DNA of 64,000 nucleotides from Streptomyces sp. AJS327 (GTDB lineage: Bacteria > Actinomycetota > Actinomycetes > Streptomycetales > Streptomycetaceae), in NCBI RefSeq assembly GCF_013450295.1, contig NZ_SKBR01000001.1, positions 1,058,001-1,122,000 of the forward strand, given 5' to 3'. The translations under genes were made by a program, and so were the position numbers. The notes under the pieces are model-generated. The model saw nothing but the letters and a program-made list of their open reading frames with translations, did not search any database and had not been told where the DNA came from. This document shows positions 40,261-55,210 of the stretch, piece after piece; the first letter of the stretch is position 1; each line of letters opens with the position of its first letter.

Positions 40261-41880
40261 CTGCTCCCCGCGCACGCGGGGATGGACCCTTCCGCGAGGA
40301 GTACACCGGGTCGAGGATCTGCTGCTCCCCGCGCACGCGGGGATGGACCCCGGATCGGGGTGATCGCCACCGCGTCCCACCCCTGCTCCCCGCGCACGCG
40401 GGGATGGACCCAGCTCCACCGCAGTGTCCGGCAGGCTCGCGCCCTGCTCCCCGCGCACGCGGGGATGGACCCGGGACCGGCTTGTTCACAGATCCATCTC
40501 CATCCTGCTCCCCGCGCACGCGGGGATGGACCCGCGGCTCCACAGGCCGCATCGAGGCGCGCTACCTGCTCCCCGCGCACGCGGGGATGGACCCCTCGCC
40601 GCATTGTCGGTCCTCCCCGTTCCCCTCTGCTCCCCGCGCACGCGGGGATGGACCCGGCGACTCCCGTGCGGCGCTGGGCCGCCTCGGCTGCTCCCCGCGC
40701 ACGCGGGGATGGACCCTTCCCCGCGTGCGGGGAACGGGTGCGGCCGGACTGCTCCCCGCGCACGCGGGGATGGACCCGGGACGCCGCTGACGCGTGACTT
40801 GTGGGACATCTGCTCCCCGCGCACGCGGGGATGGACCACAACAAGCAACTGTGCGTACGCTGCCAGGGCGCTGCTCCCCGCGCACGCGGGGATGGACCCC
40901 TGTTCGGCGAGCGGGGCCGGCACCCGTACGCGGACCGGCTGCTCCCCGTGCACGCGGGGATGGACCCGTCACGTCGCGAGAACACCAGATCGCACTCCTC
41001 TGCTCCCCGCGCACGCGGGGATGGACCCCTCGCGGATTGCAGACTCACTTTGCGGACAAGCTGCTCCCCGCGCACGCGGGGATGGACCCTCGGTCACCTC
41101 GTCCGAGGTCAGCGGCCGGGCCTGCTCCCCGCGCACGCGGGGATGGACCCGGCTTCGCGCGGTGCCAGTGAGGCCATGCCGCCTGCTCCCCGCGCACGCG
41201 GGGATGGACCCGGCTTCGCGCGGTGCCAGTGAGGCCATGCCGCCTGCTCCCCGCGCACGCGGGGATGGACCCCACCTGTGGACGGCGTTCGGGCCCACCA
41301 ATGTCTGCTCCCCGCGCACGCGGGGATGGACCCTCCCTGCCGACCTGCGCTCAGCGAGCGAATCTGCTCCCCGCGCACGCGGGGATGGACCCGCCGAAGA
41401 GGGGGTCGACTCCTCGCCCGAGACCTGCTCCCCGCGCACGCGGGGATGGACCCGGGGCCTCGAACTCCTGAAGGCGCGAGGCCAGCTGCTCCCCGCGCAC
41501 GCGGGGATGGACCCGACCACCAGATCCGCCCCGCCGAGTTCGCGACCTGCTCCCCGCGCACGCGGGGATGGACCCGCGGCAGCCAACGGCAGCACCGTGC
41601 ACCGGTTCTGCTCCCCGCGCACGCGGGGATGGACCCGTCTTCCCGAGGCTCACCCGCTGGTGACCCTCCTGCTCCCCGCGCACGCGGGGATGGACCCGCG
41701 TCCGTTCGGAGTGATGGTCCGGCGGGGGCGCTGCTCCCCGCGCACGCGGGGATGGACCCCCCCTCCCCTGTGTCGAGGTGACGGTGTTGGCTGCTCCCCG
41801 CGCACGCGGGGATGGACCCGTCCCCGAAGCCCCGATGCGCCCCGACTTCGTCTGCTCCCTGCGCACGCGGGGATGGACCC
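40261..41880 (+). CRISPR. Type I-E CRISPR array 1, 27 repeats and 26 spacers
   Basis: 29-bp repeats start CTGCTCCCCGCG and end in the 8-base handle ATGGACCC; a 7-bp stem (CCCCGCG/CGCGGGG) closes a CA loop, the Cas6e substrate. Period is 61 bp (32-nt spacers) except spacer 11 (39 nt, 40900-40938), 18 (30 nt), 24 (33 nt) and 25 (31 nt). Spacers 15 and 16 are identical. Repeat 10 ends in A; repeat 12 has C11 to T; the last repeat (41852) has C9 to T, marking the old end. The orientation, with the leader at 40192, means transcription on +. Confidence 0.97.
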
Positions 41881-42796: not shown

Positions 42797-42886
42797 CTGC
42801 TCCCCGCGCACGCGGGGATGGACCCCATCTGACTTGGCCTTCGTGACCTACTTTGAACTGCTCCCCGCCCGCGCGGGGATGGTCCT
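42797..42886 (+). CRISPR. Two-repeat mini-CRISPR upstream of the cas promoter
   Basis: A consensus repeat at 42797-42825 and a diverged repeat at 42858-42886 (changes in loop, handle and last base: CGCCCGCG, ATGGTCCT) are separated by exactly 32 bases, keeping the 61-bp period. No leader-like sequence precedes it; the lipoprotein gene does. It has the same orientation as the other arrays and lies 110 bases from the probable cas promoter. Confidence 0.9.
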
Positions 42887-42996
42887 CATCCGTCGATGCG
42901 CGGAGGCCCACAGCTCAGCTTCTGCCCCGGCGGAGGTGGGGGATCGGTCGGTGGACGCTAGTGGGCGCGAGTGGTCAACTGCGTTCAATTTGAGTG

Positions 42997-43032: not shown

Positions 43033-46000
43033 ATGTCGAATGGCCCCATGCATCAGGGCGACGGCGAACGGGGTTCCCCGTTCGCGCGGTTGTCCGCCCC
43101 CGCTCGCAGGGCCTGGGGCAAGCACGACCGGCGAACTGACGGCTGGCTGCCGCTGTGGCGGCACATGGCCGACAGCGCCGCCGTCGCTGGCAGGTTGTGG
43201 GACGAGTGGCTGCCGGAGAACGTCAGGGCGCTGTTGGGGGAGGGGCTACCGGGGGGAGTGGCGGACGGGCGACAGCTGGTGCGCTTTCTCGCGGGGGCGC
43301 ACGACGTGGGGAAGTGCACCCCGGCGTTCGCCTGTCAGGTGGACACGCTCGCAGACCGTATGCGGGACCGGGGCCTGGAGATGCCGTACCGGAGGGAGTT
43401 CGGTCAGGATCGGCGTATGGCCCCGCACGGGCTGGCCAGTCAACTGCTGCTGGAAGAGTGGCTGTTCGAACGCTTTGGTTGGCGGCACCGCGTGGCCGGG
43501 CAACTGGCGGTGGTGTTGGGCGGCCACCACGGGACGCCACCCTCGCAGGAGCAGATTCATGCTTTGCGTGTGCGTGCACGGTTGTTGCGGACTCCGGGGC
43601 GTAGCGAACGAGTGTGGCGGGAGGCGCAGTTCGAGTTGCTGGACGAGTGCGCTCGCGTCTCCGGAACGAACGAACGCTTTCCGGAGTGGAGTTCGGCGCG
43701 GATTCCGCAGACGGCGCAGGTCCTTCTGAGCGCGGTGGTCATCGTCTCGGACTGGATCGCGAGTTCGGCGGAGTTGTTTCCGTACGAACCGGAGTCAGGT
43801 TTCGGAGGGTTCGACGAGGCGCGCCGGTTGACCGCCGCCTGGACGGGGCTGGATCTCCCGCCGCCCTGGGTGCCGTCGGAGCCCGCTGGTTCGGTGGAGG
43901 AACTGTTCGCTGAGCGGTTCGCGTTGCCGCACGGGGCGCGGGTGCGACCCGTGCAGGCCGAAGCGGTGCGGATGGCAAGGGAGTTGGACACTGGCGGGAT
44001 GCTGGTGATCGAGGCGCCCATGGGCGAGGGCAAGACCGAGGCGGGGTTCGCGGCGGCGGAGATCCTGGCGGCGCGCTCGGGCGCCGGGGGTGTCCTGGTG
44101 GCGCTGCCGACCCGGGCGACGGGGGACGCGATGTTCCCCCGACTGCTGAGCTGGCTGGAGCGGCTGCCGTCGGTGGGGCCCACGTCCGTGACGCTCGCGC
44201 ACGCCAAGGCGGCGCTGAACGAGGTCTGGGCCGGGCTGTTGGAGGTGGGACGTCGGCGGATCGCGGCGGTCGAGTCGGACGGCGCGACGCGGATCCAGCG
44301 GGCCCGGGACGCCCGCCGGGACAATCCCGCGGAGTTGCAGGCGCACCAGTGGTTGCGTGGGCGCAAGAAGTCGTTGTTGTCCTCCTTCGCGGTGGGCACC
44401 ATCGACCAAGTGCTGTTCGCCGGCTTGAAGAGCCGCCATCTCGCCCTGCGGCACCTGGCGTTGGCGGGCAAGGTGGTCGTCGTCGACGAGGTGCACGCCT
44501 ACGACACGTACATGAACACCTACCTCGACCGGGTGTTGGGGTGGCTGGCCGCGTACCGGGTGCCGGTGGTGCTGCTCTCCGCGACCCTGCCGGAGGGGCG
44601 ACGACGGGAGTTGCTGGCCGCTTACGCGAACGGTGGTGTGACGACGCTCGGTTCGCCCTCCGCGTCCGTCTCCCCGCCGGACTCCGCCTCCCTCTCCGCC
44701 CCGGAGACCGACTCGGGGACGGACTCGGCCCCTCGTTGCCCGGCCGGGCGACCGCACGCGCAGGCGGCCGAAGTCTCCGAGGGCCACCCGCCGGACGCGA
44801 CGCCGCCGGACGCGACGCCGCCGGACGCGACGCCGCCGGACGCGACACCGGCGGGCGTCTCGTCTGACGCGATACCGGTGGGCGAGGTGGTGTCCCCCGC
44901 GGCCCCCGATCCCGACGGGGGCGTCGCGACCGGCGCGGGGGTGACCGGGACCGTGTACCCACTGATCACTGCGGTGGCGCCGGGTGGCCCGGTACGGACG
45001 GCGAGCCCGGAGGCGGCGGCCGGGCGCAGGACCGAGATCGTGCTGGAGCGGCTGGCGGACGGGCTGCCGGTCCTCGCGGACCGTCTTGAGCGTGAACTCC
45101 GCGACGGCGGTTGTGCGTTGGTGGTACGGAACACCGTCGCCCGGGTGCTGGACACCGCGCGGGTGCTGCGGGAGCGGTTCGGCGACGGTGCGGTGACGGT
45201 CGCGCACTCCCGCTTCGTCGCCGCTGACCGCGCGCGGAACGATGCCGAGTTGCGGGAGCGGTTCGGCCCGGACAGCGAGACACGTCCGGCCGGTCCGCAC
45301 GTCGTGGTCGCCAGCCAGGTCGTCGAGCAGTCGCTCGACGTGGACTTCGATCTACTGGTGACGGATCTGGCCCCGGTTGACCTCGCGCTTCAGCGCATGG
45401 GGCGGCTGCACCGTCATCCACGCCCGCGACCAACCCCGTTGAGGCGGGCACGCTGCCTGGTGACGGGGGTGGACTGGCGAACCGACCCGCCCCGCCTGGC
45501 CCGTGGATCGATCGCGGTCTACCGCGCCCACCACCTGCTGCGGGCGCTGGCGGTGCTCGGTCCTCATCTGGACGGCGCGCCACTGGTGTTGCCGAAGCAC
45601 ATCAGCCCGCTCGTGCAGGAGGCGTACGGGAAGACGCCGGTGGGGCCGGAGAGTTGGGCGCCGGTACTGGACAAGGCCGCGAGTGCCGAACGCGATGCCG
45701 TGGCGGAGCAGCGGGAACGGGCGGAGCCCTTCCGGCTGGGCCCGGTGCGCCCGGCGGGGCGACCGATCGTCGGCTGGCTGTACGGCGCCGTGGGAGACAC
45801 GGACGAGAGCCGCACCGGCCGGGCCCAGGTGCGCGACACCCGGGAGAACCTGGAGGTGCTGCTCGTCCAGCGCTGCCGGGACGGGCGGTTGAGGACCCTC
45901 AGCTGGCTGGAGGGCGGCCGGGGCGGCCTGAGCCTGCCCGAGCACATGCCGCCACCCCGGTGGGCCGCCGAGGCGGTGGCGGCGAGCGCGCTGACGCTCC

Positions 46001-47886
46001 CCGCCCAGTTCTGCAACAGCCGCACCATCGATCGGACACTCGACGAACTGGAGCGCTTCCACGTCCCGGCGTGGCAGAGCACTACCGAATGCCCGTGGCT
46101 GGCAGGCGAGTTGATTCTGGTTCTGGACGAGGAGTGTCAGACCCGGCTGGCAGGCTTCGACGTCCGCTACAGCCGCGCCGACGGGCTCCTGGTGGGGCCC
46201 TTCGAGTCGCCCCCGACACAGGAAGTGGAGTCCATGCGGCGGTCGTTCGACCTCATCACCCGACCCTGGCTGACGGCGTTGCGCACCGACGGGGAGTTCA
46301 CGGAGCTGTCGCTGACGGAGGTCTTCGCCCGGGCCGGGGAGATACGGCGGCTGGTCGGTGACCTGCCGACGCAGGAACTAGCCCTGCTCCGTCTGTTGTT
46401 GGCGATCCTGCACGACGCGGTGGACGGGCCGGTCGACCAGGAGGACTGGGAGCGGCTGTGGCAGGCGAAGGACCCGTTCGGGGGTGTGCCGGAGTATCTG
46501 GAGCGCCACCGGGAGCGTTTCGACCTGCTCCACCCTGAGCAGCCGTTCTTCCAGGTGGCCGGGTTGCACACGGCGAAGCACGAGGTGTCGCCGCTGAACC
46601 GGATCGTGGCCGACGTCCCGAGCGGCGAGGCGTTCTTCTCGATGCGCCGACCCGGGGCCGACCGTCTGGGGCTGGCGGAGGCGGCCCGTTGGGTGGTGCA
46701 CGCCCACGCGTTCGACGTGTCAGGCATCAAGTCCGGGATGGTGGACGACAGTCGGGTCAAGAGCGGGAAGGTCTATCCGCAGGGGGTCGGCTGGACCGGC
46801 AACCTCGGCGGCGTCTTCGCCGAGGGCGACACGCTCCGTGACACCCTCCTGCTGAACCTCATCCCCTACGAGGTGGACATCCTGCGCCCGGGGCGTGGCG
46901 CGCTGGACCGTCCGATCTGGCGTCGTCAGCAGCCCGGGCCGGGCGCGGTCGACCTGGACGAGGAACCGGAGACCGCGCGACCCACCGGGCCACGTGACCT
47001 GTACACCTGGCAGTCCCGGAGGATGCTGCTCCACACCGAGGGCGAGGAGGTCACCGGCGTCGTCCTCGGATACGGCGACCCACTCACGGCGCACAACCGC
47101 TGGGACCTGGAGCCCATGACCGGCTGGCGGCGGAGCCCCGCCCAGGAGCGGAAACACGGTCTGAAGGCAGTCCACATGCCGCTCCAGCATGACCCGAGTC
47201 GGGCCGCCTGGTGGGGACTTGAGGCAGTGCTTCCCCACCTGGCGACCGGTGCCGACAGCGGCCGGGACGTCCCCGAGCGGCGGACCTCCGGAGTGGTGCG
47301 GTGGCTGGCGATGCTGGCCAACGAGGGCGAACTGCCCGCGCACACGCTGCTGCGCACCCGCGCGATCGGCGCGGTGTACGGCACCCAGCAGTCCGTGGTG
47401 GACGAGGTGGTGGACGACGAGATCCCCCTCCCCGTCATCCTCCTGCACGAGGAGTACCCGCAGTACGGCACCCTGGCGCTGGACGCGGTCCGGGAGTCCG
47501 AGCAAGGTGTGCGCGCGTTGGGACAGTTGGCGGGCAACCTGGCTCGCGCCGCCGGTTCCGACCCGGCCGCCCCGAGTACCGCGGCGCGCGACCGGGGCTA
47601 CGGCGCCCTGGACGGACCGTACCGGCGCTGGCTCGCCGGCCTCGCCGCCGTCCCCTCCCCGGAGCGGGCCCGGGACGAATGGCGGCGCACCGCCCGGCGG
47701 ATCCTCACCGACCTGGGTCGCGAACTACTCGACACGGCGGGAGACTCGGCGGAGACGGGACGGCTCGTCGAGCATCAGAAGACGAAGCGCTGGGTGGACG
47801 CGGCCCGCGCTGAACTGTGGTTCCTGCGCGACCTCAACGGAACGCTGCCCCGGCCCGGTTCGCGCTTCGCCACCGACCCCGCCTGA
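43033..47886 (+). CDS. cas3-cse1: Cas3-Cse1 (CasA) fusion, nuclease-helicase joined to the Cascade large subunit
   Basis: 1617 residues. Cas3 part (1 to about 1060): HD nuclease with AGAHDVGK and GGHHGTPP; Walker A APMGEGKTE (near 327); DEVH (near 484); LLSATLP (near 514); SQVVEQSLDVDFD (near 761); QRMGRLHRH (near 786). All catalytic motifs are intact. An unusual low-complexity insert (about 535-645) between the helicase lobes contains four PPDAT repeats. Cse1 part (about 1068-1617): SFDLITRPWL start, then QPFFQVAGL, GGVFAEGDTLRDTLLLNLIPY and an intact C-terminal helical bundle. Cse1 recognises the PAM and recruits Cas3, so fusion delivers the nuclease with Cascade. ATG 46234, with AGGAAG upstream, could start free Cse1. 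Confidence 0.95.
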   Translation: MSNGPMHQGDGERGSPFARLSAPARRAWGKHDRRTDGWLPLWRHMADSAAVAGRLWDEWLPENVRALLGEGLPGGVADGRQLVRFLAGAHDVGKCTPAFACQVDTLADRMRDRGLEMPYRREFGQDRRMAPHGLASQLLLEEWLFERFGWRHRVAGQLAVVLGGHHGTPPSQEQIHALRVRARLLRTPGRSERVWREAQFELLDECARVSGTNERFPEWSSARIPQTAQVLLSAVVIVSDWIASSAELFPYEPESGFGGFDEARRLTAAWTGLDLPPPWVPSEPAGSVEELFAERFALPHGARVRPVQAEAVRMARELDTGGMLVIEAPMGEGKTEAGFAAAEILAARSGAGGVLVALPTRATGDAMFPRLLSWLERLPSVGPTSVTLAHAKAALNEVWAGLLEVGRRRIAAVESDGATRIQRARDARRDNPAELQAHQWLRGRKKSLLSSFAVGTIDQVLFAGLKSRHLALRHLALAGKVVVVDEVHAYDTYMNTYLDRVLGWLAAYRVPVVLLSATLPEGRRRELLAAYANGGVTTLGSPSASVSPPDSASLSAPETDSGTDSAPRCPAGRPHAQAAEVSEGHPPDATPPDATPPDATPPDATPAGVSSDAIPVGEVVSPAAPDPDGGVATGAGVTGTVYPLITAVAPGGPVRTASPEAAAGRRTEIVLERLADGLPVLADRLERELRDGGCALVVRNTVARVLDTARVLRERFGDGAVTVAHSRFVAADRARNDAELRERFGPDSETRPAGPHVVVASQVVEQSLDVDFDLLVTDLAPVDLALQRMGRLHRHPRPRPTPLRRARCLVTGVDWRTDPPRLARGSIAVYRAHHLLRALAVLGPHLDGAPLVLPKHISPLVQEAYGKTPVGPESWAPVLDKAASAERDAVAEQRERAEPFRLGPVRPAGRPIVGWLYGAVGDTDESRTGRAQVRDTRENLEVLLVQRCRDGRLRTLSWLEGGRGGLSLPEHMPPPRWAAEAVAASALTLPAQFCNSRTIDRTLDELERFHVPAWQSTTECPWLAGELILVLDEECQTRLAGFDVRYSRADGLLVGPFESPPTQEVESMRRSFDLITRPWLTALRTDGEFTELSLTEVFARAGEIRRLVGDLPTQELALLRLLLAILHDAVDGPVDQEDWERLWQAKDPFGGVPEYLERHRERFDLLHPEQPFFQVAGLHTAKHEVSPLNRIVADVPSGEAFFSMRRPGADRLGLAEAARWVVHAHAFDVSGIKSGMVDDSRVKSGKVYPQGVGWTGNLGGVFAEGDTLRDTLLLNLIPYEVDILRPGRGALDRPIWRRQQPGPGAVDLDEEPETARPTGPRDLYTWQSRRMLLHTEGEEVTGVVLGYGDPLTAHNRWDLEPMTGWRRSPAQERKHGLKAVHMPLQHDPSRAAWWGLEAVLPHLATGADSGRDVPERRTSGVVRWLAMLANEGELPAHTLLRTRAIGAVYGTQQSVVDEVVDDEIPLPVILLHEEYPQYGTLALDAVRESEQGVRALGQLAGNLARAAGSDPAAPSTAARDRGYGALDGPYRRWLAGLAAVPSPERARDEWRRTARRILTDLGRELLDTAGDSAETGRLVEHQKTKRWVDAARAELWFLRDLNGTLPRPGSRFATDPA
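44788..44847 (+). repeat. Four tandem 15-bp repeats inside cas3-cse1
   Basis: CCGCCGGACGCGACG is repeated four times in frame (last base changed in the fourth copy), encoding PPDAT repeats at about residues 586-605 in the insert between the helicase lobes. Confidence 0.9.
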
Positions 47887-47976: not shown

Positions 47977-48942
47977 ATGACCAGTCCATCCTCATCCGGG
48001 GCGGACGCCCAGTCCGAGCAGAACTCCCGGCGTCTCCCGCGCAGTCCCGCGGCGCTCGCCACCGCCCGCTGCGTCGTTCAGCTCCAGCGCACCTACCAGG
48101 CCGACGACCCGCACGCCGTCGCCGAACTCGCGCGTATCCGCCGAGGGGTGGGCCGCCGCGTGCACGAGGATCCCGGTCTGTGGGCGCAGGCCGGGCTGGA
48201 AGAACTCCCCGACGTCTACCGGGACTACGCCGATGTCCTCGGCTCGACGCGAACCGTCCCCGGCACCTGGAAGGCGAGCTCGGCGTTGTTCGCCGAGGAG
48301 GCGGTGCACCTCGCCGTCACGCTCTGGGCGCTGCACCAGCAGTCGTCCCGTAGCGCCGGAATGCACCAGAAGGGATGGACACTGGGCCGGTCGGTACGCG
48401 CGCTGATGGCCCCCCAACGGGGGGACGATGACGGGGAGTCCACGGCGACCGGGGACGGACGGACCAAGCCAGGCCGGGGCGGACGGCGGAAGAGCAAGGG
48501 GGACAAGGACTTCACGGAGGGCAGGGCAGAACGGGAGGCCCGGCACCCCGCCCGCAAACGCCTGGTCCGGCTGGGCTCGTCCACCTCCTTCGACGCGCTG
48601 GCCGTTCGCCTGCGCGACATCGTGGTGCTGCTGCGCAACGACCGTGTGCCGCTGGACTACGTGCGCCTCGCCGACCAGTTGCACCGCTGGCAGATGACCG
48701 GGGAGCGGAACGTCGTCAGCCGTGAGTGGGGCCGCGAGTTCCACCTCGCCGCCTACCGCCCCACGGCCGAGCAGCGCCCGGACAGCGGTGCGGTGCCGCC
48801 CGAGGGGGCCACCGACCCCTCCGCTCCCACCATCCCCGCACCACGCGACATCGACCACGAGTACGCCGACGACCAGTACGAGGACGACGAGTTCGTTGGC
48901 TACGGGTACGACGGCGCGGGAGAAGACGACACCGGCGAGTGA
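47977..48942 (+). CDS. cse2: Cse2 (CasB), Cascade small subunit, with extended C-terminus
   Basis: 321 residues, versus about 160-230 for typical Cse2. The core (about 25-255) has RGVGRRVHEDPGLWAQ, EEAVHLAVTLWALHQQS, GWTLGRSVRAL and FDALAVRLRDIVVLLRNDRVPLDY-type helices, all conserved in the family, which binds the displaced DNA strand and stabilises the R-loop. A basic insert of ~45 residues (KPGRGGRRKSKGDKDF) splits the helices. The last ~50 residues are acidic and Tyr-rich (EYADDQYEDDEFVGYGYDG). The gap to cas3-cse1 is 90 bases; GGAG precedes ATG 47977. Confidence 0.9.
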   Translation: MTSPSSSGADAQSEQNSRRLPRSPAALATARCVVQLQRTYQADDPHAVAELARIRRGVGRRVHEDPGLWAQAGLEELPDVYRDYADVLGSTRTVPGTWKASSALFAEEAVHLAVTLWALHQQSSRSAGMHQKGWTLGRSVRALMAPQRGDDDGESTATGDGRTKPGRGGRRKSKGDKDFTEGRAEREARHPARKRLVRLGSSTSFDALAVRLRDIVVLLRNDRVPLDYVRLADQLHRWQMTGERNVVSREWGREFHLAAYRPTAEQRPDSGAVPPEGATDPSAPTIPAPRDIDHEYADDQYEDDEFVGYGYDGAGEDDTGE

Positions 48943-49086
48943 CACTCGCCACGTCGCACGGTGGGGTGGGGGACGTTCGACCGTGGGTCCCTGCCCACCG
49001 TGAGGACGCGACCAACGCGCCGTCCAGACCGGTCTGTTCCGACGTGCTCCGCTTCACCCACACCCCTATCGAGGAATCGAGCTGTG

Positions 49087-50328
49087 ATGACACGAACCAT
49101 CCTGGACATCCACGTCCTTCAGACGGTCCCGCCGAGCAATCTCAACCGGGACGACACCGGCATGCCCAAGACGGCCGTTTACGGCGGTGTGCGGCGGGCC
49201 AGGGTCTCCAGCCAGGCGTGGAAGCGCGCCACCCGCCTCGGCTTCAACGAGACACTCCCACCATCCGAACTCGGCGTCCGTACCCGGAAGGTGGCCGAGC
49301 TGCTGGGAGAGCGCATCACCGAGCGTGCTCCCGCGCTGAGGCCGGTAGCGGTGGAACTCGCCGCCGAGACCCTGCGTACCGCGACCGGCACGAAGATCGA
49401 GGTTCCTCCGCGCAGGCAGAAGAAGGACGTGGAGGAGGGCGCCCAGGAGCCCGCACCGGAGTCCAGTTACCTGCTGTTTCTCAGCGCCCTCCAGCTCGAC
49501 GCGCTCGCGGCACTCGCGACGGAGGGTGCGGGGACCGAAGGCGCCGGAGCCGAGAGTGTCGAGGCCCTGAAGAAGTTCCTTAAGACGAAGGAGAACCGTT
49601 CGCGCGTCAAGGAGGCCGTCGACACGCGACACTCCGTGGACATCGCGTTGTTCGGCCGGATGGTCGCGGACTCCGCCGACCTCACGGTGGACGCCGCCGT
49701 ACAGGTGGCCCACGCCCTCGGCGTCCACGGCAGCGAGATCGAGTCTGACTACTTCACCGCCGTGGACGACCGCAGCAAGGCAGCCGAGGAGTCCGGAGCG
49801 GGAATGATCGGCACCGTCGACTTCAACTCCGCCACCCTGTACCGCTACGCGGCCCTGGATGTGAACCAGCTCCGGCAGAACCTGGGCGGCCTCAAGAACA
49901 AGGGCGCCGAGGAACCGACTCAGCGTGCGGTCGTCGCCTTCCTGGAGAACTTCCTTCTGTCGCTGCCCAACGGGAAGTCCAACTCATTCGCCCACCAGAC
50001 CGTTCCGGCCGCCGCGGTGGTGAAACTCCGCTCGCGCCGCCCCGTCAGTTTCGTCGGCGCCTTCGAGGAGCCCGTGCCCCGGGGCGAGAACGGCGGCTAC
50101 ATGCAGAACAGTTGCGAACGCCTCGCCAAGCACGCCTCGGACCTCGAACACCAACTCGGCCTCGCGGACGCCGAACACAGCTGGGTCCTGCGTTTCGGAG
50201 ACGAAACCTCCGCACTCTCCGCCCTCGGTACCCAGCTCCCCCTGGACGAGCTGCTGACAGCGGTCGGCTCGACGATGACGGAACGGCTGGCGGCGGGCAC
50301 CAACACCGCTGTGGAGCAAACGCGATGA
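49087..50328 (+). CDS. cas7: Cas7 (Cse4/CasC), Cascade backbone subunit
   Basis: 413 residues. Family blocks include ILDIHVLQTVPPSNLNRDD and GGVRRARVSSQAWKRATR at the N-terminus, RHSVDIALFGRMVAD, GTVDFNSATLYRYAALD and KSNSFAHQTVPAAAVVKLR near the C-terminus. Six copies coat the crRNA spacer in Cascade. ATG 49087 is preceded by GAGGAA; GTG 49084 in the same frame is an alternative. Its stop overlaps the cas5 start as ATGA. Confidence 0.95.
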   Translation: MTRTILDIHVLQTVPPSNLNRDDTGMPKTAVYGGVRRARVSSQAWKRATRLGFNETLPPSELGVRTRKVAELLGERITERAPALRPVAVELAAETLRTATGTKIEVPPRRQKKDVEEGAQEPAPESSYLLFLSALQLDALAALATEGAGTEGAGAESVEALKKFLKTKENRSRVKEAVDTRHSVDIALFGRMVADSADLTVDAAVQVAHALGVHGSEIESDYFTAVDDRSKAAEESGAGMIGTVDFNSATLYRYAALDVNQLRQNLGGLKNKGAEEPTQRAVVAFLENFLLSLPNGKSNSFAHQTVPAAAVVKLRSRRPVSFVGAFEEPVPRGENGGYMQNSCERLAKHASDLEHQLGLADAEHSWVLRFGDETSALSALGTQLPLDELLTAVGSTMTERLAAGTNTAVEQTR

Positions 50329-51077
50329 GCGTGCTGCTCCTGCGGCTCTCCGGACCCCTCCAGTCCTGGGGCTCCGCCTCCCGCTTCGCCCGCCGCGCCA
50401 CCCAGCAGGTGCCCACCAAGAGCGGAGTGCTCGGTCTACTCGCGGCCGCACAGGGTCGGGACCGTGAGCACGACCTCACGGACCTGGCCCGACTGGAGTT
50501 CGGGGTCCGCGTCGACCAACCAGGCACTCGCGTACGGGACTTCCAGACCGCGCGGCACCTGGACACCGGCAAGGCCATGCCGATCTCCGAGCGCTACTAC
50601 CTGGCCGACGCGGTGTTCGTCGCGGGCGTCAGAGGCGAACTCCCCCTGATCCAGGCGCTGTACGAGGCTCTACACGACCCGGTGTTCCTGCCCTTCCTCG
50701 GTCGACGCTCCTGCCCGCCGTCCCGGCCCCTCACCATGGGCCCACCGATCGACACCAGGCTGGAAGGGGCGCTGCGCCAGGCGGAGTGGCAGGCCGCGCC
50801 CTGGTACCGCGAGGGCTTTCGGGACGCCACCAGAACGCGGCGGGCCGTCGTGGGCACTCCCGACACCCTGGAACTCCTCCTGGACTGCCCACCCGCCGAG
50901 CGTCCCGACGTCACCGCCCACGACCTGCCCGTCAGCTTCTCGCCCACGCACCGGCGATACGCGCCACGTCCCATCCGCACCCTCGACGTACCCGTCCCCG
51001 GACGGGCCGGGGCGGCGGACCCCGTACCCCATGACCCCACCCCCCACCTCCGCCCGCTCACGCCGAGGACCGACTGA
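50325..51077 (+). CDS. cas5: Cas5 (CasD), crRNA 5'-handle-binding Cascade subunit
   Basis: 250 residues. Typical N-terminus VLLLRLSGPLQSWGSASRFARR and TKSGVLGLLAAAQGR, then ISERYYLADAVFVAGV and FLGRRSCPPSRPL. It holds the 8-base 5' handle of the crRNA. Translational coupling with cas7 (4-base overlap) and with cas6e (1-base overlap). Confidence 0.95.
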   Translation: MSVLLLRLSGPLQSWGSASRFARRATQQVPTKSGVLGLLAAAQGRDREHDLTDLARLEFGVRVDQPGTRVRDFQTARHLDTGKAMPISERYYLADAVFVAGVRGELPLIQALYEALHDPVFLPFLGRRSCPPSRPLTMGPPIDTRLEGALRQAEWQAAPWYREGFRDATRTRRAVVGTPDTLELLLDCPPAERPDVTAHDLPVSFSPTHRRYAPRPIRTLDVPVPGRAGAADPVPHDPTPHLRPLTPRTD

Positions 51078-51793
51078 TGTACCTGACCCGCTTCCGCGCC
51101 AACATCGCGCGAGCCGACGCCCGGAGGCTGTTCGGCTCCCCGCATCTGCTGCACGGCGCGGTCAGCATGTCCTTCCCGCGCCCACCGGGGCGGGACGGGG
51201 CGGGCCCCCGTGTGCTGTGGCGACTCGACCACGACGCATCCCACCAGACCTCACTGTTCATCGTCAGCCCCGACCGCCCCGACCTCACCCACCTTGTGGA
51301 GCAGGCAGGTTGGCCCGCCTCGGACGTCCCCGGCTGGGACACCTACGACTACGGGGCGTTCCTCGGCGGCCTCAACCAGGGCGACGTCTGGGGCTTCCGG
51401 CTCACCGCCAACCCCGTGCACCACGTCCGTCTCCCTGGCCAGCCGGAAGGCGCACGCACCAAGCGCCTCGCCCACCGCACCCCGAAACACCAGACGACGT
51501 GGCTGCTTGAGCGGCAGCAGAGTGCGGGCTTCGAGGTGCTACCGAAGCCCCCCGAACGGCAGTTGGCCCAGGAGGGTGACGAGCACCAACTCGCCGTCCG
51601 CGACTACCGCCCCCTGCGCTTCCGCAGACAACCCCGGGAGCAACGCGCGGAGGACGTCCGCATCACCCGCGTCACCTTCGACGGACGGCTGCGGATCACC
51701 GACCCCGAACTCCTCCGGCGCACCCTCACCCACGGACTCGGCAAGGCCAAGGCATACGGCTGTGGCCTCATGACCCTCGCTCCGGTGAGGTGA
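51077..51793 (+). CDS. cas6e: Cas6e (Cse3/CasE), crRNA-processing endoribonuclease
   Basis: 238 residues. The N-terminal ferredoxin-like domain contains RLFGSPHLLHGAVSMSFP with His residues near the expected catalytic site. The C-terminal Gly-rich loop LTHGLGKAKAYGCGLMTLAPV is the RAMP signature. It should cut each repeat at the 3' base of its hairpin, leaving ATGGACCC (or GTGGACCC) as 5' handle. Confidence 0.94.
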   Translation: MYLTRFRANIARADARRLFGSPHLLHGAVSMSFPRPPGRDGAGPRVLWRLDHDASHQTSLFIVSPDRPDLTHLVEQAGWPASDVPGWDTYDYGAFLGGLNQGDVWGFRLTANPVHHVRLPGQPEGARTKRLAHRTPKHQTTWLLERQQSAGFEVLPKPPERQLAQEGDEHQLAVRDYRPLRFRRQPREQRAEDVRITRVTFDGRLRITDPELLRRTLTHGLGKAKAYGCGLMTLAPVR

Positions 51794-51795
51794 CC

Positions 51796-52770
51796 ATGAG
51801 TGGTCTCGGCTCCCGAGGAGCCTCCTCCCCACGCCAACTCACCCGCGTCCAGGACCGGATGTCTTTCGTCTACCTCGAACGGTGCGTGGTGCACCGCCAG
51901 GACAACGCGATCACCGCCGAGGACACCGAGGGCGTCCGGCACATCCCCTCGGCCACCATCGGCACCCTGCTCCTCGGCCCCGGAACCCGCGTCACCCACC
52001 AGGCCATGTCCCTGTTGGGCGACTCCGGTGCGGGCGTCGTCTGGGTGGGCGAACACGGCGTGCGCTACTACGCGGGTGGCCGAGCCCTGACCCGTTCCTC
52101 AGCCCTCGTCGAAGCGCAGGCGACCGCCTGGGCCAACCGTCGCTCCCGCCTGGACGTAGCCCGGGCCATGTACGCCCTCCGCTTCCCTGACCTCGACGTT
52201 GCCCAGTTCACCCGCAAGGAGCTGATGGGCAAGGAGGGCGACCGGCTCCGGAGGTGTTACCGCGAAGAGTCCTCGCGTACCGGAGTCCCCTGGCGCACAA
52301 GGGAGTTCAACCGTGACGACTTCTCCGCCGGAGACGCCCCCAACCAGGCCGTCACCGCCGCCGCGCAGTGCATGTACGGGATCGCCCATGCCGTCGTCAT
52401 CGCCCTCGGCTGTTCCCCCGGACTCGGCTTCGTCCACGCCGGACACGAACGCTCCTTCGTCATGGACGTCGCGGACCTGTACAAGACCGATATCGGAATC
52501 CCCGCCGCCTTCGACGCCGCGGCCGAAGGCGAGGAGGAGGTGGCCAGCCGCACCCGCCGCGCCCTCCGTGACCGCATCAACACGACGGATCTCCTGGGGC
52601 GTTGTGTTCGCGACATCCAGGGCCTTCTCGCGCCCTACGCCACACGCGGCGGCAAGGGATCGCCTCATCCTGGCGGCCACCCGGAACACGACGACCAGGC
52701 CGCCCTCCAGTCCGACGGCGACGTGCGCCTCGCGAGCGGCCGAAACTACGGCGAGGAGATCGTCTGGTGA
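51796..52770 (+). CDS. cas1: Cas1, CRISPR adaptation integrase
   Basis: 324 residues. Type I-E Cas1 signatures: RMSFVYLERCVV, the active-site Glu in GKEGDRLRRCYREES, and His/Asp in GLGFVHAGHERSFVMDVADLYK. All three metal-binding residues appear intact. ATG 51796 lies two bases after the cas6e stop, with GAGGTG as a weak SD. The end overlaps the cas2 start. Confidence 0.95.
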   Translation: MSGLGSRGASSPRQLTRVQDRMSFVYLERCVVHRQDNAITAEDTEGVRHIPSATIGTLLLGPGTRVTHQAMSLLGDSGAGVVWVGEHGVRYYAGGRALTRSSALVEAQATAWANRRSRLDVARAMYALRFPDLDVAQFTRKELMGKEGDRLRRCYREESSRTGVPWRTREFNRDDFSAGDAPNQAVTAAAQCMYGIAHAVVIALGCSPGLGFVHAGHERSFVMDVADLYKTDIGIPAAFDAAAEGEEEVASRTRRALRDRINTTDLLGRCVRDIQGLLAPYATRGGKGSPHPGGHPEHDDQAALQSDGDVRLASGRNYGEEIVW

Positions 52771-53123
52771 CCGTCATCGTCCTCACCAACTGCCCCGCCG
52801 GGCTACGGGGATTCCTCACCCGCTGGCTGCTGGAGATCTCTCCCGGCGTCTTCCTCGGTTCACCCTCCACTCGGGTACGGCACGAACTCTGGGCGGAAGT
52901 ACGGGAGTACACCGGCCAGGGTCGAGCCCTGCTCGCCTACCAGACCAACACCGAACAGGGCTACGCCTTCGAAACCCACGACCACTCCTGGAAACCCACC
53001 GACCACGACGGGCTCACACTCATCCACCGCCCCAACGCCACAGCATCGACGCAGAGTTCAGCGACCTCGCCGCGCTCCGGCTGGAGCAAGGCCGCCAAAC
53101 GCCGCCGCTACGGCCGAAGATGA
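52767..53123 (+). CDS. cas2: Cas2, type I-E adaptation subunit
   Basis: 118 residues. It begins VTVIVLTNCPAGLRGFLTRW and contains LLEISPGVFLGSPSTRVRHEL and TEQGYAFETHDHSWKPTDHDGL-like beta strands of the CasE-type Cas2 group. The C-terminus is basic (KAAKRRRYGRR). With Cas1 it integrates new spacers. The GTG start overlaps the cas1 stop as GTGA. Array 2 follows about 170 bases downstream. Confidence 0.93.
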   Translation: MTVIVLTNCPAGLRGFLTRWLLEISPGVFLGSPSTRVRHELWAEVREYTGQGRALLAYQTNTEQGYAFETHDHSWKPTDHDGLTLIHRPNATASTQSSATSPRSGWSKAAKRRRYGRR

Positions 53124-53292: not shown

Positions 53293-55210
53293 CTGCTCCC
53301 CGCGCACGCGGGGGTGGACCCGGGGACGGCGGGGCTCGGGCTGGTGGCGGCACCTGCTCCCCGCGCACGCGGGGGTGGACCCGACACCGACACCCTCCCC
53401 AAGCACAACGTCGGCTGCTCCCCGCGCACGCGGGGGTGGACCCGGCGTTCCTCCCTTGCTCCCAGGAGCGGACCGCTGCTCCCCGCGCACGCGGGGGTGG
53501 ACCCGACGGCACCGACGTGCCCACCGGGCAGCTCCTCTGCTCCCCGCGCACGCGGGGATGGACCCGCGTCAGCCTGCTTGCGCAGCGAATCCGCCGCCTG
53601 CTCCCCGCGCACGCGGGGATGGACCCGTCACCGCTGAAATCGAGTGGGGCGGCAGCGTCTGCTCCCCGCGCACGCGGGGATGGACCCCTGAAGAGAGCGC
53701 TAGGTGTTTGAGAACTCAACTGCTCCCCGCGCACGCGGGGATGGACCCCGGGACCGGCCCGACAACGGCGCCGCCATGGTCTGCTCCCCGCGCACGCGGG
53801 GATGGACCCTTGAAAGGGCTGGTGGAGGCGGCGCGCTGCGGGCTGCTCCCCGCGCACGCGGGGATGGACCCCACGCCTGTGGATCGACCTCGTAGAGCGC
53901 GTCCTGCTCCCCGCGCACGCGGGGATGGACCCCACGCCTGTGGATCGACCTCGTAGAGCGCGTCCTGCTCCCCGCGCACGCGGGGATGGACCCGCCATCA
54001 CCATCCCCCGAAGCGAGGTCCGGTTCTGCTCCCCGCGCACGCGGGGATGGACCCGACTGGCAGCTCAAGGGCATGGGCTACGGCCACTGCTCCCCGCGCA
54101 CGCGGGGATGGACCCTGGTGGGCGCGGCCTGTCCTTGCGGCGATCCCCTGCTCCCCGCGCACGCGGGGATGGACCCGATCCCGGCTCCCCGCCGCCGTCG
54201 GCGGGCCGCTGCTCCCCGCGCACGCGGGGATGGACCCATGCCCCTGACCCTCGTCACCATCGACGAGGTCTGCTCCCCGCGCACGCGGGGATGGACCCGC
54301 ATCCAGGGCATCACCCAGCAGAGCGAGAGGCTGCTCCCCGCGCACGCGGGGATGGACCCCCCCCTCCCTTGCGTCGAGGTGGCGGCAGCGGCCTGCTCCC
54401 CGCGCACGCGGGGATGGACCCTTGCGGACCGCGAGGGCCGACAGCGCCTTGATCTGCTCCCCGCGCACGCGGGGATGGACCCGCCGTGAAGCGCGCGATC
54501 CGTTGAAAGCGTCCCTGCTCCCCGCGCACGCGGGGATGGACCCGCGGCGCCCGCGCCAGCAGTTGGCAGAGCATGCTGCTCCCCGCGCACGCGGGGATGG
54601 ACCCGGGATGCTGCCGCAGGTCGACTTCCCCGAGCTCTGCTCCCCGCGCACGCGGGGATGGACCCACGGAGTCATCCGTGTTCGCGAGGGTGTTGGCCTG
54701 CTCCCCGCACACGCGGGGATGGACCCTCACCCGCTTCCTGGCTGGTGCCTTCTCCCACCTGCTCCCCGCGCACGCGGGGATGGACCCGTCGCGATGCTCG
54801 CCTACCAGCGGAAGCACTGCTGCTCCCCGCGCACGCGGGGATGGACCTGACTCGGCCTGCGGCCGAAAGCCCACCTTCCACTGCTCCCCGCGCACGCGGG
54901 GATGGACCCCAATATCCGCAACGCTCCTCCAACCAGTCATACTGCTCCCCGCGCACGCGGGGATGGACCCGCGCGGTCCCGGAACCCGGGCGACCGCCAC
55001 TGGCTGCTCCCCGCGCACGCGGGGATGGACCCCGTACCCCGAGAGATGGACCCCGCGAACAGTGCTGCTCCCCGCGCACGCGGGGATGGACCCTGATGAA
55101 GATCGGCAAGGGGCGGACCCAGCACCTGCTCCCCGTGCACGCGGGGATGGACCCTTGCGTGCGGGGACCCCGATTCGGTGCTGACCTGCTCCCCGCGCGG
55201 GGGATGGTCT
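53293..55210 (+). CRISPR. Type I-E CRISPR array 2, 32 repeats and 31 spacers
   Basis: Same 29-bp repeat as array 1 and 61-bp period, with a few 33-nt spacers (9, 18, 28). The four leader-proximal repeats (53293, 53354, 53415, 53476) carry G at position 22, the first base of the crRNA handle (GTGGACCC); all later repeats have A. Spacers 10 and 11 are identical. Repeat 24 has G12 to A, repeat 26 ends in T, repeat 31 has C11 to T, and the last repeat (55186) is shortened to 25 bases. This marks the old end. Confidence 0.97.

Follow-up and report, generated by a model that had tools for sequence, protein, structure and literature searches.

The window, by which we mean the whole 64,000-nucleotide stretch of Streptomyces sp. 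AJS327 DNA that was analysed, carries a type I-E CRISPR-Cas system in which cas3, cse1, cse2, cas7e, cas5e, cas6e, cas1e and cas2e lie at one locus together with CRISPR arrays, and in which cas3 and cse1 form a single gene. The features of the locus are as follows:

40261..41819, + strand, upstream CRISPR array, 26 repeats matched; repeat and orientation identical to those of the downstream array
43033..47886, + strand, Cas3-Cse1 fusion gene, 1617 aa (translation, NCBIfam, Pfam, PADLOC)
47977..48942, + strand, cse2 (cas11e), open frame of 321 aa (TIGR02548)
48961..50328, + strand, cas7e, start codon uncertain (TIGR01869)
50325..51077, + strand, cas5e, overlapping cas7e as ATGA
51077..51793, + strand, cas6e (TIGR01907, PF08798)
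51790..52770, + strand, cas1e (TIGR03638)
52767..53123, + strand, cas2e, with a GTG start as the best fit (PADLOC Cas2e, E 2.9e-45)
53293..55154, + strand, downstream CRISPR array, 31 repeats matched

The Cse2 frame of 321 aa compares with a family model of 167 positions, to which residues 38-257 are matched; the frame may contain an insert, or its start may have been called too early. Each array holds a pair of duplicate neighbouring spacers (41122/41183 and 53843/53904), and the spacers at 41731 in the upstream array and 54331 in the downstream array look related. In the downstream array, repeats one to four (53293-53504) have a G in place of the A found in the remainder (GGGGGTGG versus GGGGATGG). 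An isolated repeat pair at 42797-42890, the second repeat of which is degenerate, lies just 5' of cas3 and is separate from the upstream array.

The fusion gene has 1617 codons plus a stop in an unbroken frame, and its translation contains complete HD, helicase and Cse1 parts:

43114..43779, + strand, Cas3 HD nuclease domain, aa 28-249 (Pfam PF18019, Cas3_HD, E 6.5e-56)
43945..44637, + strand, helicase domain 1 with the DEAD motif part, aa 305-535 (Pfam PF00270 at 305-376; PDB Cas3 chains aligned to 535)
44638..44955, + strand, low-complexity insert between the helicase domains, aa 536-641, with PPDAT repeats (translation; mostly unaligned with relatives by tblastn)
45106..45423, + strand, helicase domain 2, aa 692-797 (Pfam PF22590, Cas3 C-terminal helicase)
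45832..46188, + strand, Cas3 C-terminal domain, aa 934-1052 (Pfam PF18395, Cas3_C)
46189..46233, + strand, Cas3/Cse1 linker, aa 1053-1067 (gap between Pfam domains; varies among relatives)
46234..47886, + strand, Cse1 (Cas8e) part, 550 aa from 46234 (TIGR02547, E 4.8e-62; PF09481; 3wvo)

Translation, Pfam, NCBIfam and PADLOC concur on this arrangement and bear out the sequence-only reading, which had described one uninterrupted frame of 1617 residues with complete HD, helicase and Cse1 parts. A break in the frame was considered and rejected, the frame being open throughout both the window sequence and the genome assembly. The Pfam Cse1 match spans aa 1073-1560 of the fusion protein. When the genome was searched for a second source of Cse1, the sole match at E 1e-3 was the fusion gene itself. 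The insert at 44638-44955 is about 100 aa long and includes four consecutive PPDAT repeats; a near relative (L019) has about six residues where the window has aa 533-626.

The junction between the two halves contains the elements of a second start:

46220..46225, + strand, Shine-Dalgarno (SD)-like AGGAAG, with eight bases between it and ATG 46234 (duplex energy -8.2 kcal/mol)
46234..46236, + strand, in-frame internal ATG, codon 1068; candidate start for free Cse1 (sequence; start codons similarly placed in relatives)

The sequence-only reading had put this ATG at the Cse1 boundary, with AGGAAG eight bases upstream and SFDLITRPWL as the very next residues. The ATG and its spacing are as described, but two arginines (RR) intervene between M1068 and SFDLITRPWL. 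A peptide begun here would read MRRSFDLITRPWL... and run for 550 aa. Its residues 4-543 align with positions 10-550 of 3wvo, a solved Cse1 chain of 558 residues, and because this alignment runs nearly end to end, the predicted product is a full-length Cse1. The SD and the in-frame start lie at the edge of a complete functional unit, and the internal start is a real feature of the sequence.

To place this site on a common scale, each in-frame ATG or GTG was scored by the pairing energy of bases -17 to -4 with the 16S tail. At -8.2 kcal/mol, the site at 46234 is stronger than the first start of the gene (-5.9) and the cse2 start (-5.8), and it is equalled by 4.9% of the same-length, same-frame segments of the gene, which is a modest level. 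Its openness with respect to RNA structure has a rank of 0.113. When the synonymous codons of the window's linker were resampled, a site of equal or greater strength arose in 89% of draws. This result, like the single-gene p value of 0.049, agrees with an explanation in which the Glu/Gln-rich linker itself yields AGGAAG and the Met is incidental. Such a chance origin is decidedly unlikely, however, given that the register of start and SD is common to five relatives with 66-68% protein identity (L019, L116, L036, L117 and, as GTG, L037) and that the family-level signal described below persists after codon permutation.

These five belong to the seven nearest fused relatives of the window's gene, which are 65-68% identical to it in protein sequence and form one clade; the fork at which the window's branch meets both this clade and another of thirteen rows is unresolved. 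AAAGG stands at -16 to -12 ahead of the ATG in L019, L116, L036 and L117 and ahead of the GTG in L037, that is, in five of the six short-linker near relatives, where the window has ACAGG. L118 lacks the AAAGG register, and the linker of L038 is long. For the window and these seven relatives together, 29 of 1145 positions in an alignment scan are as strong in SD plus start as the junction, and permutation of synonymous codons leaves an excess of -0.03, with 512 of 1145 positions as low. The window's gene alone is thus the weaker evidence, with no signal above that dictated by its amino acids.

We therefore turned to fused and split relatives. A sample of 392 same-genus genomes yielded 55 with a Cse1 relative (E <= 1e-60); for 18 of these the match falls within an open frame reported as 1500 aa or longer. 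Excluding G129, in which an in-frame stop separates Cas3 and Cse1 in the DNA, contrary to the reported frame length, leaves 17. We collected 161 loci, of which 145 matched Cse1 with 300 bits or more; removal of duplicates, defined as loci identical across the first 300 nt of Cse1, reduced these to 132. The final set comprises 50 fused and 82 split loci, a ratio that is not a measure of prevalence because the loci were chosen by their similarity to the window. A locus was called fused if the Cas3 C-terminal match and Cse1 lie within the same open frame; for most fused loci about 500 Cas3 codons were covered, and full frame lengths were determined separately. Among the matches listed by a further search for relatives, every fused gene was one of the collected loci. 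One genome (G023) has, besides its fused gene L031, a second, distant Cse1 (35% identity) elsewhere.

Within the 66 nt that precede Cse1, a site at -6 kcal/mol or better occurs in 38 of the 50 fused genes, and the median over all 50 is -8.05. The same threshold is reached by 91% of the start regions of split cse1 genes (n=82; median -9.90) and by 15% of background segments inside the Cse1 part of fused genes (n=1196). Two of the fused junctions, L084 (G191) and L147 (G877), lie within short open frames and may belong to broken genes; both reach -6, and excluding them gives 36 of 48. A count based on contiguous SD matches gives a similar picture, with 36 of 50 fused junctions positive versus 13.1% of 3272 segments. 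Twelve of the fused genes fall short of -6 throughout these 66 nt, and in L122 and L098 the junction is entirely without ATG or GTG. Compared with same-length segments in their own frame, 30 of the 50 junctions have p <0.1; with relatives grouped at 80% identity, the mean p is <0.1 in 19 of 34 groups.

A scan along the alignment keeps kinship equal at every position. The scan covered the final 970 codons of the 50 fused genes, and the junction outscored all 933 other positions. By subgroup, 0 of 1141 positions are as strong in the short-linker main clade, 6 of 923 in the long-linker genes and 35 of 1139 in the second clade, so the signal is weaker in the latter two. Within the second clade, the ATG is present in L137, L136 and L131 and absent from L132, L043 and L133. 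After the junction, SD plus in-frame start peaks most strongly in Cas3, in the region of residue 949 of L001, just into the C-terminal domain, and this peak may come from conserved Leu-Glu-Val codons. The family tests were chosen after inspection of the sequences and are not mutually independent. They are stronger than the single-gene evidence, and they place the junction start beyond chance in the relatives. That a start at the boundary recurs across the fused family is a well-supported reading of these alignments. The sequence-only reading, which had presented the boundary ATG as new in this one gene, was right about its placement and too narrow in its scope.

We also asked how much of this signal the amino acids demand. 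After synonymous codons were permuted within genes, the observed minus expected energy at the junction was -2.50 kcal/mol, and 0 of 933 positions elsewhere were as low. The excess is -4.30 in the short-linker genes without the window's group (0 of 1140 as low), -1.81 in the long-linker genes (43 of 923) and -2.76 in the second clade (22 of 1139). Synonymous resampling of individual linkers gave p <= 0.05 in 12 of 50 genes; for this test the junction's own p values were used, and a Mann-Whitney comparison was dropped because control segments lacking Met or Val score p = 1. Synonymous change between relatives was examined in ten non-overlapping close pairs, picked by falling identity. In 12-codon segments, the junction has synonymous differences at 12 of 81 identical residues, versus 20.2 expected (z -2.15), and 50 of 1163 other segments are as low, with similar results at 8 and 18 codons. 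A set of nine hand-chosen pairs (9 of 80 versus 20.3 expected; 4 of 1163 as low) was discarded as overstated, since its result was inflated by taking the most favourable of three pairs among L124, L126 and L039. The slowing of synonymous change is thus only suggestive as a sign of selection. The Val column at the junction is 82% GTG (18 of 22), which ranks third (tied) among 104 Val columns, but this is weak support because nearby linker Val codons are mostly GTG too.

The strength of the SD by itself is also raised at the junction, where the mean of the segment minima is -9.87 versus -7.46. This elevation is what one would expect if the SD-like sequence slowed ribosomes, so that Cas3 folds before Cse1 is synthesized, with no initiation. 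A start codon would be superfluous for pausing, however, and starts behind a strong SD are four times commoner than elsewhere and mostly in frame: ATG or GTG makes up 20.3% of 192 junction codons behind a strong SD versus 4.9% of 4795 elsewhere. Even without a strong SD the share is 9.9% at the junction versus 4.7% elsewhere, so part of the signal is due to a linker rich in Val and Met. The combination of SD and start is enriched 5.2-fold in frame 0 and 2.1-fold in another frame, and its excess is absent (0) in the third. These values use the background frames as the control; a frame comparison limited to the junction was dropped because start-codon density differs between frames everywhere. 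Junction sites are also less structured, with 17 of 48 falling within the most open tenth of positions. The in-frame enrichment and the low structure fit initiation better than a pause, to which we give a very slim chance.

Comparing fused and split genes provides a potential explanation for how such a start came to lie at the boundary. A maximum-likelihood tree quickly built from 131 Cse1 sequences (L084 omitted) requires eight changes between the fused and split states, and starred branches force no fewer than six of these. The main clade of 44 rows (SH-aLRT 96) contains 40 fused and 4 split genes (L041, L052, L134 and L049), the second clade of 8 rows contains 7 fused and 1 split (L061), and a third, less sure pair is formed by L093 and L098. 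The tree by itself cannot distinguish gain from loss of the fusion. In all five nested split loci (L052/L162, L041/L089, L134/L163, L049/L164 and L061/L165) the Cas3 and Cse1 frames are both open, which makes them natural examples of interchange between the fused and split states and means that a cse1 start is needed near the boundary.

Two cases illustrate this. In the split L061, the stop of cas3 and the start of cse1 share the sequence ATGA, and cse1 would begin MTTAEP-SFDL; its fused sister L137 reads through the same place as ...VRMTPAEP-SFDL and retains AAGGAGG upstream. The junction of the split L052 is one base shorter than those of its fused sisters L126 and L039, so that, barring a ribosomal frameshift, its Cse1 needs a start of its own close to the boundary. 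For split genes, starts were assigned from stop, SD and frame, not from annotation, and on this basis the split relatives nested among fused ones appear to start cse1 near the boundary. The fusion would have originated when an indel joined a cas3-cse1 pair overlapping or abutting at its stop and start codons. In a pair of this kind, the old cse1 start could remain in frame at the boundary.

The same history would allow the site to be a relic, in which the ATG and SD-like sequence are left over from the cse1 start before fusion and the fusion is the only product made in useful amounts. The location of the site agrees with the cse1 starts assigned to split genes, some fused genes lack the start codon or the SD (L118, L122, L132, L043 and L133), the window's group has no nucleotide-level excess, and the synonymous slowing is merely suggestive. 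Yet divergence among the fused genes is deep, with no more than 68% identity between the window's and any other, and an unconstrained site should mostly have decayed, whereas 38 of 50 junctions still reach -6 or better and exceed what the amino acids demand. We consider a relic unlikely, though it deserves to be taken seriously.

We favor, if slightly, a model in which the gene gives two products. Translation from ATG 43033 would yield the 1617-aa Cas3-Cse1 fusion and hence a Cascade with the nuclease-helicase already attached, and translation from ATG 46234 behind AGGAAG would yield free 550-aa Cse1 for a Cascade without attached Cas3. This pairing of fusion and free Cse1 had been proposed in the sequence-only reading. 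The comparative part of the evidence argues for it, with sites at 38 of 50 junctions and a median near that of split starts and well away from background; the window's own group adds no signal beyond its amino acids, 12 of 50 fused genes are without a site, and selection on synonymous codons is only suggestive. In the window's gene, ATG 46234 is probably a working start. Across the fused genes, ribosomes would initiate at the junction, selection would maintain the site, free Cse1 would enter Cascade, and the mixture of armed and unarmed complexes would be of importance to the cell.

A variant of the two-product model moves the control to transcription. A promoter, or else a processing site, within the 3' portion of cas3 would give a separate cascade mRNA, which alone would be served by the junction start, with free Cse1 still made. 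Such an mRNA would spare the junction start from ribosomes coming off Cas3, and E. coli transcribes its cascade genes separately from cas3. A scan of 45900-46300 found no sigma-70-like promoter, although such a scan covers few Streptomyces promoters. To an internal transcript we give a slim chance.

Extending the two-product model beyond the window, we tentatively suggest, while leaning somewhat against it in this full form, that actinobacterial Cas3-Cse1 fusions as a class are two-product genes under selection. One gene would then set the ratio of armed to unarmed Cascade, and the retained start would let small indels split and restore the fusion with Cse1 preserved.

The original report of Cas3-Cse1 fusions is said to be that of Westra et al. 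in 2012. The fusion in the window is of a known kind, as the earlier reading had it: reviews name natural fusions in type I-E systems that, like the window's, combine Cas3 and Cse1 in a single protein (PMC3890593, PMC3727216). In the relevant passages of these two reviews the fusion is treated as one product, and an internal Cse1 start goes unmentioned. An engineered E. coli Cas3-Cse1 fusion is described as functional (PMC3890593), and a term search of the main text of the 2025 classification update (PMC12669027) gave no occurrence of 'fusion'. Our search of open-licence papers found none on an internal Cse1 start within a Cas3-Cse1 fusion; the fusion is already known, and the internal start was not found described in the literature searched.

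Most type I systems recruit Cas3 only after target recognition, a safeguard against stray cutting that a natural fusion seems to forgo. If free Cse1 is also made, the cell would retain both forms, in a ratio adjustable by translation. A comparable mixture, in which only part of the Cascade has Cas3 tethered to it, has been assembled in yeast, where a Cas3-Cse1 fusion added to E. coli Cascade raised the reduction in transformation from 50% to 73.5% for one target plasmid; for a second target plasmid the values were 88.6% and 88.7%, with no difference from adding the fusion (PMC9241507). The fusion is called naturally occurring in that paper (PMC9241507); PMC3890593 describes an engineered E. 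coli fusion. The yeast mixture came from two plasmid genes (PMC9241507), whereas the window has one gene with two candidate starts. The yeast result shows that such a mixture can work, and it says nothing on whether one exists in the window's strain.

If the two-product model is true, it would help account for the interchange of fused and split cas3 and cse1. The first paper on internally initiated Cas11 is reportedly that of McBride et al. in 2020. It is established that Cas11 arises from in-frame initiation at internal sites of cas8b, cas8c or cas10d; there, as in the model for the window's gene, one cas gene gives two proteins, the internal start lies behind an SD-like sequence, and the shorter product is a Cascade subunit (PMC11899642). 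Cas11 corresponds to a short C-terminal part of the large subunit (PMC11899642), whereas the candidate product here is the whole large subunit without the nuclease. The internal start at the Cas3-Cse1 junction, if it works as proposed, would extend the one-gene-two-proteins pattern of Cas11 to the large subunit of type I-E.
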